The translations under genes were made by a program, and so were the position numbers. Source: an uncultured Poribacteria bacterium (GTDB taxonomy: Bacteria > Poribacteria > WGA-4E > WGA-3G). From it: 64,000 nt of DNA. A model generated the notes under the pieces. It was not told the DNA's origin. It worked only from the letters and a program-made list of their open reading frames with translations, and made no database searches. Of the stretch, positions 5,957-33,127 are shown one piece after another. The DNA is taken from assembly GCA_951812525.1 (NCBI GenBank), contig OX638316.1, forward strand, positions 3,280,506-3,344,505, written 5' to 3'. Numbering within the stretch: position 1 is the stretch's first letter; each line of letters starts with the position of its first letter.

Positions 5957-7636
5957 ATGTCCAATAAACTGAAACCCCGAAGTTATGCCATTACTGATGG
6001 ACCCGATCGCGCTGCCGCACGCACAATGCTCATGTTCGGCGACGGCGGACTGTCGCCGGAAGATCTTGACAAACCAATCATCGGGGTTGCCAATACATGG
6101 ATCGAGATCGGACCTTGTAACTTTCACCTGAGACGGCTCGCCGCCAAGGTCAAAGAGGGGATTCGCGCTGCAGGCGGCACACCCCTTGAATTCAATACCG
6201 TCAGTATCTCTGATGGTATCACGATGGGCACAGAGGGTATGAAGACCTCGCTCATCAGCCGAGAGATCATTGCCGATTCGATCGAATTGGTTTCCATCGG
6301 TAACATGTTTGATGGTGTTGTCGCACTCTGTGGATGCGACAAGACTGTTCCCGGCACCGTCATGGCATTGGCGCGGTTAGACATTCCATCGCTTACTATT
6401 TACGGTGGTTCAATTATGCCGGGTAAGTTTCAGGGACGCGATGTCACCATTCAGGACGTATTTGAAGCAGTCGGGCAACACGCAGAAGGCACAATAACCG
6501 TTGAAGAACTCGATGACTTGATTAGCAAAGGATGTCCGGGCCCCGGTGCATGCGGTGGACAATTTACCGCCAATACGATGGCGACAGCCGTGGAAATGTT
6601 GGGCATTGCTCCGATGGGCAGCGGTAGTGTTCCCGCTGTTGTAGAAGACAAAGATCAAGAGGCGTACAAAGCCGGACAACTCATTATAGACATGCTCGCT
6701 GCCGATCGGCGACCGAGTCAAATTATCACCCGTAAGTCGCTTGAGAATGCGATTACCTCTGTCGCCGCGACCGGCGGCTCTACCAACGGCGTTCTACACC
6801 TCCTCGCCATCGCACACGAAGCACAAGTTCCAATAACGCTTGAGGATTTCCATGCGATTAGTCAAAGGACACCCGTGTTAGCAGATCTGAAGCCCGGTGG
6901 GCAGTTTGTCGCTAACGATCTCTATGAGGCAGGTGGGATCCCCTTCTTGGCGAAACGCTTGGTAGAAGCAGGTTTGCTCCACACCGATGAACTCACCGTC
7001 ACTGGTAGAACTATCGGTGAGGAGGCGAACGCATCCACTGAAACCTCAGGACAACAAGTCGTCAGACCTGTAGATGCACCACTCAAACCGACGGGTGGTT
7101 TTGCTATCTTGAGGGGTAATCTCGCACCAGATGGGTGTGTTATCAAGTTAGCCGGGCAGGACAAAACCCTCCATCGCGGTCCAGCGCGTATCTTTGACCG
7201 TGAGGAAGACACTTTCGCCGCCATTAAGGGTGGAGAGATTAAACCCGGTGATGTTGTTGTGATTCGTTATGAAGGACCTACTGGCGGTCCCGGTATGCGC
7301 GAGATGTTAGGTGTAACAGCCGCACTTGTCGGTGCTGGTTTGAGCGAGGATGTCGCCCTTTTAACAGACGGTAGATTTTCCGGTGCAACACACGGTTTCA
7401 TGATCTGCCATGTCGCTCCTGAAGCGGCAAGAGGTGGTCCCATCGCTATTCTCCAAGAAGGAGACGAGATCGTAATTGATGCCAAGGAACGCCGACTTGA
7501 TGTCCAGCTCTCCGATGCTGAAATCCAAGCACGCTCTGAACAGTGGACACCACCTGAACCGCGTTATACTCGCGGCGTTATGGCGAAATATGCGAACTCA
7601 GTATCTTCTGCCTCCGAAGGTGCTGTGACGGGATAG
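5957..7636 (+). CDS. ilvD: Dihydroxy-acid dehydratase
   Basis: Fe-S enzyme of branched-chain amino acid synthesis that dehydrates 2,3-dihydroxy-isovalerate and 2,3-dihydroxy-3-methylvalerate. The 559-residue length fits the family. Conserved segments are [35 protein letters not shown] (cluster cysteine region), and [11 protein letters not shown] near the C-terminus. The start ATG at 5957 follows GTAGGAGAAC. It is separated by 22 kb from ilvB-ilvH-ilvC, so the pathway is split over two loci in this window. A hairpin terminator follows it. Confidence 0.97.
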
Positions 7637-28514: not shown

Positions 28515-29120
28515 ATGGCACACACATTACCAGCGCTCCCTTATGCCCACGATGCTTTGGAGCCCCACATTGACGCACAGACGATGGAAATCCACCACGG
28601 CAAACACCATCAAGCTTATATCAATAACTTGAACACCGCCTTAGAAGGACTCGGTGCTGTCGCCGATATGGATATTCACGACTTGCTCAGCAATCTTGAT
28701 CAGGTCCCGGAAGACAAACGCCAAGCCGTCATCAACAACGGTGGTGGGCACGCCAATCATTCGCTCTTTTGGTCCGTTATGAGCCCCAACGGCGGCGAAC
28801 CTGGTGGAGAAATCGCAGCCGCGATCACCTCGACTTTCGGATCGCTTGAAGCCGCAAAAGAACAGTTTGTTACAGCCGCAACCACACGCTTTGGTTCCGG
28901 TTGGGCATGGCTCGTCCTTGGCGACAGCGGATTGGAAATCTACTCTACAGCGAATCAGGACAGTCCGATTATGCAAGGACATGTTCCACTTCTTGGAATT
29001 GATGTCTGGGAACACGCATATTATCTGAAATACCAAAACCTCCGTCCAGCTTACGTTGAGGCGTGGACAAACGTCATCAACTGGACACGCGTCAACGAAC
29101 TCTACGTCGCAAATGCCTAA
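28515..29120 (+). CDS. sodA: Superoxide dismutase, Fe/Mn family
   Basis: Converts superoxide to oxygen and hydrogen peroxide. The 201-residue length is normal. Metal-ligand segments are visible: [13 protein letters not shown] near residue 27, [11 protein letters not shown] near residue 77, and [13 protein letters not shown] near residue 160. TANQDSP is typical of the Mn-type group, so Mn or cambialistic use is favoured but not certain. No signal peptide; cytoplasmic. The start at 28515 is preceded by TAGGAGG. It has its own candidate promoter upstream and a partial hairpin repeat plus the ilv regulatory region downstream. Confidence 0.96.
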
Positions 29121-29228: not shown

Positions 29229-29257
29229 TTGACACGCGCCCTTAAATGTGTTATACT
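29229..29257 (+). promoter_or_regulatory. Promoter of the ilvBHC operon
   Basis: TTGACA (29229-29234), exactly 17 bases, TATACT (29252-29257). It lies directly upstream of the T-box leader, leaving a roughly 465-base transcribed leader before ilvB. Confidence 0.8.
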
Positions 29258-29339: not shown

Positions 29340-29657
29340 CGAGAAAAGCGTTGAAGGGGAGGAGTAAGTCGTCCGAACTTGAAAGAGATGGAGACTCATG
29401 GGCTGAAAGGTCTCCTCAAGATTTCACGACTGAAGGTCGCCCTGGAGCTGCTGATCTGAACAACATCCGATTGCGACAAGTAGGATTAGCCGGTGTGATG
29501 TCCGTTATCGCATCCCAAAGAGTGCTCTTTCTTATTGCAGAATGGCTTTGTAAGCCTGATGCTTTAGTGAAGATGAGGAAGGGAATTGGAGTGGTACCAC
29601 GGTAAGGTCAGTGTAAATGTCCTTCTCGTCTCCAAAATTGGAACGAGAGGGCTTTTT
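29340..29657 (+). promoter_or_regulatory. T-box leader controlling ilvBHC
   Basis: A tRNA-sensing attenuator. The hallmark T-box sequence is present: AATTGGAGTGGTACCACGG (29584-29602), with the tRNA-end-binding bulge TGGT at 29592-29595, followed by an intrinsic terminator at 29621-29657. The 5' part can fold as Stem I. AGTA lies at 29363-29366; AGTCGT (29367-29372) pairs with ACGACT (29426-29431), and GGAGAC (29390-29395) pairs with GTCTCC (29410-29415). The loop opposite AGTA contains GTC (29436-29438), a plausible valine specifier codon, and the bulge base T fits a tRNA with A as discriminator. Uncharged tRNA-Val would favour antitermination and expression of acetolactate synthase. The T-box call is strong. 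The specifier assignment is tentative. Confidence 0.88.
29621..29657 (+). terminator. T-box attenuator terminator
   Basis: CCTTCTCGT pairs with ACGAGAGG around a loop, followed by GC and TTTTTT (29652-29657). The loop side CTCCAAAATT can instead pair with AATTGGAG upstream, giving the alternative antiterminator. Confidence 0.85.
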
Positions 29658-29729
29658 TAATTTCAACGACTCCCCGTAGGGAATAGGGAACTGCATCCCT
29701 CACCCTCACAACTTATGAGGAAAATTGGC

Positions 29730-31406
29730 ATGGAACTTTCAGGAGCGCAAATCCTTATTGACGGTCTCAAGCGGGAAGGTGTCGAATATATCTTCGGTGT
29801 GAATGGTGGTGCAGCGATGCCGATTTTCGATGCCTTATACAGCGAACAAGACATCAAATTGATTCCGATGCGGCATGAGCAAGGGGCTTCCCATGCCGCT
29901 GATGGGTACGCTCGCGCCACCGGAGATGTCGGCGTTGTACTCGCAACCTCCGGTCCTGGTGCAACGAATCTTGTCACCGGTATCGCAACCGCCTATATGG
30001 ATTCGATTCCTATGGTTGCAATCACTGGGCAGGTTTTCACACACTATATCGGTAGCGATGCCTTCCAAGAATGCGATGTTATTGGTGTAACACGTCCCGT
30101 CTGTAAGCATAGTTATCTCATCAAGGATACCGACGAGATCGCAGATGTCGTCGCCGAGGCATTTCACATCGCGAAGACTGGAAAACCAGGTCCTGTCATT
30201 ATTGACATCGCTAAAGATGCACAGATACGTGAGGCACTGTTTCAGTATCCAGAAACAGTTGACATCCGCAGCTATAAGCCGCAAGTACATGGCGATCCAG
30301 TGCAAATTGAGAAAGCAGCGGCACTGATTAAAGAAGCCAAACGTCCGATGCTTTACGCCGGCGGCGGTGTAGTACTCGCCAACGCCAGTGAGGAACTGCG
30401 ACAGCTCACCCTTAATACACAGATACCGATTACCGTTACCTTGATGGGGCTTGGCGCGTTCCCTGAAACACATCCATTGGCGATGGAAATGCCCGGAATG
30501 CACGGCTCCTGTTGTGCAAATTACGCCTTCACCGATGCCGATCTTGTTATCGCTGTTGGCGCAAGGTTTGACGACCGCGTTACCGGTGATCTCAGTAAAT
30601 TCGCTCCTAATGCCAAGAAAATCCACATTGATATTGATGCCTCATGTATCGGGAAAAATGTCCCCGTGGATGTTCCGATTGTTGGCGATGCGAAGAATGT
30701 CCTGACGGAATTGAACAAGCAGGTGGGTGCAACAGACATCGACCCGTGGCGCGCCCAAATTCAGGAATGGAAGCAGAAGTATCCATTTGAATACGAGCAA
30801 AAGGGTGATAAGGTGATGCCTCAGTTCGTCATTGAGCAGATTTATAAACATTACAGCGATGCCATAGTCGTTGCGGATGTCGGACAACACCAGATGTGGG
30901 CAGCACAATACTTCAAATTCACCGAACCTAGACAGTGGCTCAATTCTGGAGGGCTTGGCACGATGGGCTTTAGCCTACCCGGCGCAATCGGCGCGCAACT
31001 CGGATGTCCAGACAAAACCGTCGTCAATATCAATGGTGACGGATCGTATATTATGACAATCCAAGAGTTGGTGCCAGCCGTTACAATGAAGCTGCCGCTT
31101 AAGGTCTTTATCATCAACAATATGTATCTGGGGATGGTGCGTCAGTGGCAGGAACTCTTCCACGGCAAGCGCTACTCTGCCGTTGATTATCACGATAATC
31201 CCGATTTTGCCTTGCTTGCAGAGGCATTCGGTGCTACCGGACTTCGGGTCGAACACCCCGAAGATGTCGAACCTGCATTACAGAAGGCAAAGGGGATTAA
31301 CGACGGTCCCGTCGTTATCGACTTCATCGTTGACGAAGAGGAGAATGTATTCCCGATGGTACCAGCAGGTGCCGGTCTTGGGGATGTTATCCGTGGGTTA
31401 TCTTAA
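29730..31406 (+). CDS. ilvB: Acetolactate synthase, large (catalytic) subunit
   Basis: TPP-dependent enzyme making acetolactate/acetohydroxybutyrate, first common step of valine, leucine and isoleucine synthesis. The 558-residue protein has GVEYIFGVNGGAAMPIFDAL, the catalytic-Glu segment RHEQGASHAADGYARATG, GPGATNLVTG, and the TPP/Mg motif NINGDGSYIMT...NNMYLGMV near the C-terminus. ATG 29730 is preferred over ATG 29715 because GAGG lies nine bases before it. ilvH and ilvC follow on the same strand and the T-box leader lies upstream. The second TPP enzyme at 57322 is a different, AlsS-like form. Confidence 0.95.
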   Translation: MELSGAQILIDGLKREGVEYIFGVNGGAAMPIFDALYSEQDIKLIPMRHEQGASHAADGYARATGDVGVVLATSGPGATNLVTGIATAYMDSIPMVAITGQVFTHYIGSDAFQECDVIGVTRPVCKHSYLIKDTDEIADVVAEAFHIAKTGKPGPVIIDIAKDAQIREALFQYPETVDIRSYKPQVHGDPVQIEKAAALIKEAKRPMLYAGGGVVLANASEELRQLTLNTQIPITVTLMGLGAFPETHPLAMEMPGMHGSCCANYAFTDADLVIAVGARFDDRVTGDLSKFAPNAKKIHIDIDASCIGKNVPVDVPIVGDAKNVLTELNKQVGATDIDPWRAQIQEWKQKYPFEYEQKGDKVMPQFVIEQIYKHYSDAIVVADVGQHQMWAAQYFKFTEPRQWLNSGGLGTMGFSLPGAIGAQLGCPDKTVVNINGDGSYIMTIQELVPAVTMKLPLKVFIINNMYLGMVRQWQELFHGKRYSAVDYHDNPDFALLAEAFGATGLRVEHPEDVEPALQKAKGINDGPVVIDFIVDEEENVFPMVPAGAGLGDVIRGLS

Positions 31407-31512: not shown

Positions 31513-32010
31513 ATGAATCCTGAAGAACGACACATCTTTTCCGTTTTGGTCGAAAACCGATTTGGAGTCCTCGCCCGCGTCGCGGGACTCTTCAGCGGAC
31601 GCGGTTTCAATATTGACAGTCTCAATGTCGCCGAAACGCATGACAAGAGCATTTCGCATATAACTCTTGTCACACATGGAGACGCCCAGATTATTGAACA
31701 GATCTACCATCATTTAAACAGACTCATTGACGTTATTGAGGTGACTGACCTTTCCACGGGGACTCACGTTGAGCGAGAACTCGTCATTATCAAGATTGCT
31801 ACTGATGATCCTCAAAAACGTACCGAGATTCTACAGGTCGCGGAAGTCTTCCGTGGGCGGGTTATAGATATGAAACCTACCTCCCTTGTCCTTGAAATTA
31901 CAGGTGATGAGGGTAAATTGAAGGCAGCGATTGATATTTTCAATACGTATGGTATCCTCGAATTATCACGCACCGGCAAGATAGCGATGCTACGCGGATC
32001 TGAAAAATAG
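31513..32010 (+). CDS. ilvH: Acetolactate synthase, small (regulatory) subunit
   Basis: A 165-residue regulatory subunit with an N-terminal ACT domain (HIFSVLVENRFGVLARVAGL, FSGRGFNIDSLNVAET) that in this family binds valine for feedback inhibition and stimulates IlvB. A C-terminal domain follows (RELVIIKI...RGRVIDMKP...GKIAMLRG). The ATG at 31513 is used; a TTG one codon earlier is possible. It lies about 100 bases after ilvB, with an intergenic hairpin repeat in between. Confidence 0.95.
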   Translation: MNPEERHIFSVLVENRFGVLARVAGLFSGRGFNIDSLNVAETHDKSISHITLVTHGDAQIIEQIYHHLNRLIDVIEVTDLSTGTHVERELVIIKIATDDPQKRTEILQVAEVFRGRVIDMKPTSLVLEITGDEGKLKAAIDIFNTYGILELSRTGKIAMLRGSEK

Positions 32011-32134: not shown

Positions 32135-33127
32135 ATGGCAACAATTTATTACGATAGTGATGCCAATTTTGATTTACTAAAAGAGCGCACCGTCGCTGTC
32201 GTTGGTTACGGCGCACAAGGACGCGCACAATCACTCAACCTCAAAGACAGCGGGGCAAACGTTGTCGTCGGATTATACGAAGGCAGCCGTTCAAAACCAC
32301 GTGCAGAAGCGGAAGGCTTGACCGTTAAAACCGTTGAAGAAGCCGCAGCGATGGCTGACATCGTTCAGGTTCTCATTCCTGACGAACGCCATGCTGCTGT
32401 TTACCGCGACCAGATCGCTCCGAATATGCAAACCGGGAATATGCTCCTCGTCTCACACGGATTCAGTGTCCATTTTGGTCAGATTGTTCCCGCCGATGAT
32501 ATCGATGTCGCAATGATTGCACCAAAAGGTCCCGGTTCTCTCGTCCGTGAAGTCTTTGAAGGTGGTGGCGGCGTTCCATGCCTTATCGCTATTCATCAAG
32601 ACACCACGGGGCTTGCGCGCGACGTTGCACTTGCTTATGCCAGAGGCATTGGTGGCACGCGCTCGGGTGTCATTGAGACAACGTTCCGTGAGGAAACCGA
32701 AACCGATCTCTTTGGTGAGCAAGCAGTACTCTGTGGCGGAACCGCCGCACTCATCAAAGCCGCGTTTGACACACTCGTCGAAGCCGGATATCAACCGGAG
32801 ATGGCTTACTTTGAGTGTCTCCACGAACTCAAACTTATTGTCGATCTCATCTACACCGGCGGATTGAGCAAGATGCGGAATGATATTAGCAATACCGCTG
32901 AATACGGAGATCTCACACGCGGTCCGATGCTCATTGACGATGGAATCAAAGACAAGATGCGCCAGATCTTGAAGGACGTGCAGGAAGGTATCTTCGCTCG
33001 CGAGTGGGTTTTAGAGAACGAGGCGAACCAACCGGTACTTGGAGCACTCCGCCGACAGGAAGCGGAATTACAGATCGAAGAGGTCGGCAAAAATCTGCGC
33101 AGTATGATGAGTTGGCTCGACGAATAG
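32135..33127 (+). CDS. ilvC: Ketol-acid reductoisomerase
   Basis: Isomerises and reduces acetolactate/acetohydroxybutyrate to the dihydroxy acids. The 330-residue length indicates the short class I form. It has the Rossmann motif [15 protein letters not shown] near residue 25, the cofactor loop [29 protein letters not shown], the metal site segment [22 protein letters not shown] near residue 190, and the C-terminal SNTAEYGD motif. The start at 32135 is preceded by AAGAAGGAACAGGC. It likely forms one transcription unit with ilvB and ilvH under the T-box. Confidence 0.97.

Follow-up and report, generated by a model that had tools for sequence, protein, structure and literature searches.

A class I T-box predicted to sense valine tRNA ahead of the ilvB-ilvN-ilvC operon in Candidatus Poribacteria

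T-boxes have been described in Firmicutes, Actinobacteria, Chloroflexi, Deinococcus-Thermus, and Geobacter (PMC2494555, PMC3766115), and it has been asked whether they were born in Firmicutes and then spread or arose in an ancestor of several phyla (PMC3766115). A leader preceding the ilvB gene of a Poribacterial genome, for which the original prediction proposed a T-box in a lineage outside Firmicutes, raises the questions of whether it is a genuine T-box, how long the lineage has had it, and which tRNA it would sense. The window analysed here is a stretch of 64,000 nucleotides that forms part of a single 5.06-Mb contig (genome G000), and its IlvB shares 94% identity with the protein of a Candidatus Poribacteria MAG, which places the host, a sponge-type bacterium, outside Firmicutes as proposed. 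Our analyses indicate that the leader is very probably (at a probability of roughly 0.93) a genuine class I transcription-attenuating T-box controlling ilvB-ilvN-ilvC, with tRNA sensing predicted from its sequence.

Table 1 Features of the ilvB leader and operon in window coordinates, together with the second T-box of the same genome.
Feature	Position	Strand	Evidence
Putative sigma-70-type promoter, TTGACA-N17-TATACT, extended -10	29229..29257	+	11/12 consensus positions; predicted function
T-box leader, whole (RF00230)	29342..29636	+	105.4 bits, E 3.1e-22, full-length match
Stem I: K-turn base, specifier loop, distal T-loop-like motif	29348..29448	+	Rfam alignment, covariation
Distal T-loop-like motif of stem I, AGAGA / GGCUGAAA	29384..29388 / 29401..29408	+	
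Specifier GUC (Val)	29436..29438	+	Register from alignment with the pheS T-box (UUC) and 67 aligned ilv leaders
Stem II with S-turn GAA/AGUA	29451..29489	+	97.6% paired, 6/7 pairs covary
Stem IIA/B pseudoknot, CGG/CCG + GAUGU/GCAUC	29491..29514	+	Covariation
Stem III with inserted inner hairpin, between RRRNG (GAGUG) and AA	29525..29583	+	93% paired, 5/7 covary
Antiterminator, UUGGAG/CUCCAA + ACG/CGU around UGGUACC bulge	29586..29635	+	Constrained fold -15.1 kcal/mol
UGGU bulge, predicted to pair with tRNA ACCA end (discriminator A)	29592..29595	+	UGGU in relatives
Intrinsic terminator and U tract, CCTTCTCGTCTCCAAAATTGGAACGAGAGGGCTTTTTT	29621..29658	+	Fold -18.1 kcal/mol
ilvB, acetolactate synthase large subunit	29730..31406	+	TIGR00118, 796.6 bits, cut-off 538
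ilvN/ilvH, acetolactate synthase small subunit	31513..32010	+	TIGR00119, 188.6 bits, cut-off 56.9
ilvC, ketol-acid reductoisomerase	32135..33127	+	TIGR00465, 440.9 bits, cut-off 226
pheS T-box of the window genome	L112:4318-4545 = G000:C1:1288317-1288544	-	UUC specifier

When the whole window was scanned against Rfam, the T-box family was the only one above threshold, and it matched the leader over the complete model (positions 1-219 of 219) with a score above the gathering cut-off of 93 bits. An Infernal search had been suggested as a check on the original prediction, and the T-box core, TGGT bulge, terminator, alternative pairing, and promoter that it described were all present where it had placed them. 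A chance match is rejected by the E-value (3e-22) together with the covariation described below. The fold of the whole leader is not unusually stable compared to shuffled sequences (z -1.1), which is expected because the element is a switch; given that this z-score is uninformative, the case for a T-box is carried by the covariance model and the covariation. The gene order can be read directly, and the predicted ilvBHC operon indeed follows the leader, with ilvB, ilvN (equivalent to ilvH), and ilvC each scoring above their NCBIfam cut-offs. The ilvB start is an ATG at 29730 with GAGGA upstream, with an alternative start at 29715. Just upstream of the T-box promoter, in which TG precedes the -10 hexamer, the same strand carries a superoxide dismutase gene of the Mn/Fe type (28515-29120).

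The RRRNG and AA motifs that flank stem III can be read directly in the leader as GAGUG and AA, and the leader has the stem II S-turn and the IIA/B pseudoknot expected of class I, with double-sided changes in 12 of 15 pairs. Like Firmicutes class I T-boxes such as that of B. subtilis tyrS, it combines a stem I bearing a specifier loop and distal motif, a stem II S-turn, a IIA/B pseudoknot, stem III, a UGGN antiterminator, a terminator, and a specifier ending in C. It differs from them in its Poribacterial host and in the long variable insertions of the stem II and stem III loops, whose lengths differ widely between species; by analogy, its mechanism would not depart from that of class I. We aligned 42 diverse ilv leaders with MAFFT and evaluated covariation on the structure from the Rfam alignment, to which the pseudoknot and two further antiterminator pairs were added (54 pairs). 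Standard pairs were found in 93.9% of cells, and 38 of the 54 pairs changed on both sides, compared to 14.9 ± 2.2 in shuffled alignments and 13-19 when the structure was slid by 1-3 columns; doubly changed cells numbered 137, compared to 31.9 ± 5.7 and 20-38, respectively. The slid structures make the fairer control, because related sequences inflate the shuffle test. Stem I (helices 1-5), whose covariation had been named as a further check, was 86.5-100% paired, with 18 of its 21 pairs changed on both sides somewhere in the alignment, and in the IIA/B region (helices 7-8) all five pseudoknot pairs covaried and were 96% paired.

Of 85 Poribacteria genomes searched, 79 have T-boxes, usually two each, and among the 56 better assemblies (completeness of 90% or more, contamination of 5% or less) 55 have them. 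We retrieved about 130 Poribacteria leaders for reading and aligned 67 ilv leaders; the two usual T-boxes are one with GUC, which precedes ilvB or, in two deep lineages, ilvD-ilvB, and one with UUC before pheS. In these deep lineages, G004 and G002, the valine T-box lies ahead of ilvD, followed by ilvB, ilvN, and ilvC (L253:1-5555 and L254:1284-7301), and G002, the most distant genome bearing a T-box, has both the valine and the phenylalanine T-box. Given that both reach the deepest lineage sampled, they are older than the radiation of the phylum, and T-boxes are apparently nearly universal and ancestral in Poribacteria. A search for the leader in plasmids returned no match. Within the window genome the T-box search recovered two elements only, those before ilvB and pheS, and ValS is encoded elsewhere, so that ilvBNC would seem to be the sole target of the valine signal; the single ilvD found in this genome (window 5957-7636) is unlinked to the ilvBNC operon and ~40% identical to a deep-lineage ilvD protein over the 150 residues searched. 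With few T-boxes per genome, placed on amino-acid or tRNA-ligase genes, Poribacteria resemble the cases known from Geobacter leuA, Deinococcus-Thermus, Chloroflexi, and Actinobacteria, from which they differ in target genes and specifiers.

How this regulation came to Poribacteria had been left as a choice between horizontal acquisition and ancient origin. Its antiquity within the phylum is borne out, in that the T-box is older than the diversification of the known members, and the phylum ancestor may have either inherited it or received it from a Firmicute-like donor. In an IlvB tree, the sampled Poribacterial proteins formed one group (support 98) in which G002 and G004 branched first, a pattern that fits descent within the phylum; the deeper placement in this tree is weak, because it was built by a quick method with outgroups picked for their resemblance to the query. 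The alternative, that the T-box-ilv unit reached Poribacteria recently by horizontal transfer from a Firmicute and is not ancestral to the phylum, would accord with the position of Poribacterial IlvB on the Bacillota/Atribacterota side of the tree (support 94, not starred) and with the order valine T-box-ilvD-ilvB-ilvN common to deep Poribacteria and Bacillota. We nevertheless consider it unlikely, given that the Poribacterial group branches from the deepest genomes inward, that G002 already has both T-boxes, and that some T-box is present in all but 6 of the 85 genomes. In the Bacillota loci L049 and L054 and in L008, a T-box whose specifier reads GUC in the alignments precedes ilvD-ilvB-ilvN, at a distance of ~2 kb from ilvB. 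The two Bacillota T-boxes share their specifier and target pathway with the window T-box, and their order ilvD-ilvB-ilvN is also that of G002 and G004; in contrast, the window T-box lies directly before ilvB, with ilvD unlinked.

The same T-box search, in which the phylum name of each comparison set was taken from its centre genome, recovered T-boxes in all 50 Atribacterota genomes (2 to 15 each), in 26 of 100 Nitrospirota genomes, and in none of 40 Calditrichota and 99 Bacteroidota genomes. Atribacterota and Nitrospirota are absent from the phyla listed in the T-box distribution papers (PMC2494555, PMC3766115). We conclude that the sampled Poribacteria diversified after the T-box was in place, with transfer into their ancestor and older inheritance both compatible with the data. 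T-boxes outside Firmicutes are already known, and their occurrence in Poribacteria appears unreported: the limited literature collection searched contained no paper joining T-boxes with Poribacteria and no relevant one on Poribacteria and riboswitches, which is not proof of novelty.

As to the tRNA, the specifier loop of the window leader reads GAA-G-GUC-G-CCC, and in the same register the second T-box of the genome, in the rplT/pheS interval ahead of pheS-pheT, which encode phenylalanyl-tRNA synthetase, reads GAA-U-UUC-A-UCC, which corresponds to phenylalanine. This matching register identifies the window specifier as GUC, for valine, and the loop opposite AGTA in which GTC had originally been noticed is this specifier loop. 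The genome encodes a tRNA-Val(GAC) whose acceptor stem ends in ...ACCGCCC-A, with no encoded CCA; its discriminator A fits the UGGU bulge, as had been supposed from the T of the bulge. The tRNA-Ile, tRNA-Leu, and tRNA-Phe that we checked also have discriminator A, so that the bulge is non-discriminating and specificity is left to the specifier alone, and UGGU occurs in every correctly anchored Poribacteria leader. The leader could thus be a T-box whose effective ligand is another branched-chain tRNA, of isoleucine or leucine, since the bulge fits these equally and the ilvBNC products serve all three branched-chain amino acids. One leader (L145:425-727, genome G026) does have AUC, for isoleucine, at the same position before ilvB, but all other ilv leaders that we aligned or parsed retain GUC, those before ilvD included, while the flanking bases drift, which makes such a ligand very unlikely for the window leader. 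UUC is likewise found in all parsed pheS leaders. The leader with AUC and its sister with GUC (L098, genome G025) represent a natural specifier switch. Odd specifier readings returned by pattern parsing for L089, L202, L219, and L242 were rejected as products of wrong anchors, at TGGAACC sites in L219 and L242; the MAFFT alignment gave GUC for L202 and UUC for L089, and a later pheS alignment gave UUC for L219. Of the outcomes that had been set against valine control at the start, namely no Infernal match, a stem I without covariation, and a different amino acid in homologous leaders, none was found apart from the one AUC, so control of ilvBNC by valine tRNA remains the best reading, predicted from the match, the stem I covariation, and the conservation of GUC.

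By analogy with the T-box family, tRNA binding, the sensing of charging, and a termination switch would be expected. After initiation at the promoter, RNA polymerase would transcribe stem I, where the anticodon and elbow of tRNA-Val(GAC) would be recognised through the GUC specifier and the distal T-loop-like motif. The free ACCA end of an uncharged tRNA would pair with the UGGU bulge and stabilise the antiterminator, allowing read-through into ilvBNC; with the charged tRNA, the antiterminator's 3' half would join the terminator hairpin and transcription would end before ilvB. The CUCCAA segment is common to the antiterminator (-15.1 kcal/mol) and the terminator (-18.1 kcal/mol), and because the 3' arm of the former is the 5' arm of the latter, the two structures are mutually exclusive. 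A simple terminator scan of the window did not pick up this terminator, which reflects the limits of its stem and loop rules, and the terminator pairs showed no covariation above controls in the aligned ilv leaders, partly because their 3' side is misaligned where loops vary. The hairpin and U tract are kept in four relatives (L148, L155, L178, and L195) despite a loop ~50 nt larger. Operons of the ilv type are a classic attenuation target in Proteobacteria and this leader precedes one, but an ordinary translation-coupled attenuator, merely T-box-like and encoding a leader peptide rich in Ile, Leu, and Val codons, is hardly credible given that the helices covary as RNA, that the T-box match is full-length, and that no short ORF with a run of such codons is seen between the promoter and ilvB in any of the three forward frames.

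In most of the window's own family, the second T-box departs from the class I architecture. Stem II and the IIA/B pseudoknot are kept in the pheS T-boxes of families f2, f3, f5, f7, and f8, and in the window's own family both are missing from most of them (relatives L197-L241), with genus g2 keeping both. In 33 of the 39 parsed pheS leaders of this family, stem I and stem III are connected by a linker of roughly 11-20 nt, mostly A-rich, whose fold energy is 0.0 in nearly all cases. The stem-II-less leaders still have stem I, stem III, and the antiterminator; 18 of 45 pairs changed on both sides, with 59 doubly changed cells compared to 20.6 ± 3.6 in shuffled and 0-9 in slid controls, and UUC is invariant among the 25 pheS leaders aligned. 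The pheS T-box of the window genome has a small hairpin, CCCGUCC-GUUACUA-GGACGGG, without the pseudoknot, which may be a vestige of stem II. Stem-II-less T-boxes of the class II (glyQS) type are described as glycine-specific (PMC10482949), a restriction attributed to strong, all-G-C codon-anticodon pairing (PMC7583486). The linker replacing stem II in the family, in place of which the window genome's copy keeps its hairpin, resembles class II, but the specificity is not for glycine; given the UUC specifier and the pheS target, we do not file these T-boxes there. Most pheS T-boxes of this family have lost stem II and IIA/B yet probably remain working phenylalanine switches, and a phenylalanine T-box of this build, with its putative function, would be a new variant.

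Together, these results add Poribacteria as a phylum with near-universal (79/85), apparently ancestral T-boxes, which bears on the question of where T-boxes arose (PMC3766115), and the presence of T-boxes in Atribacterota and Nitrospirota as opposed to their absence in the sampled Calditrichota and Bacteroidota sharpens that question. If the pheS T-boxes do function as proposed, a T-box can dispense with stem II without being glycine-specific, even with the A-U-rich pairing of UUC with GAA, which would call into question the all-G-C codon-anticodon helix as the reason why glycine T-boxes manage without stem II. The putative stem-II-less phenylalanine T-boxes of Poribacteria would represent a natural test of the purpose of stem II.
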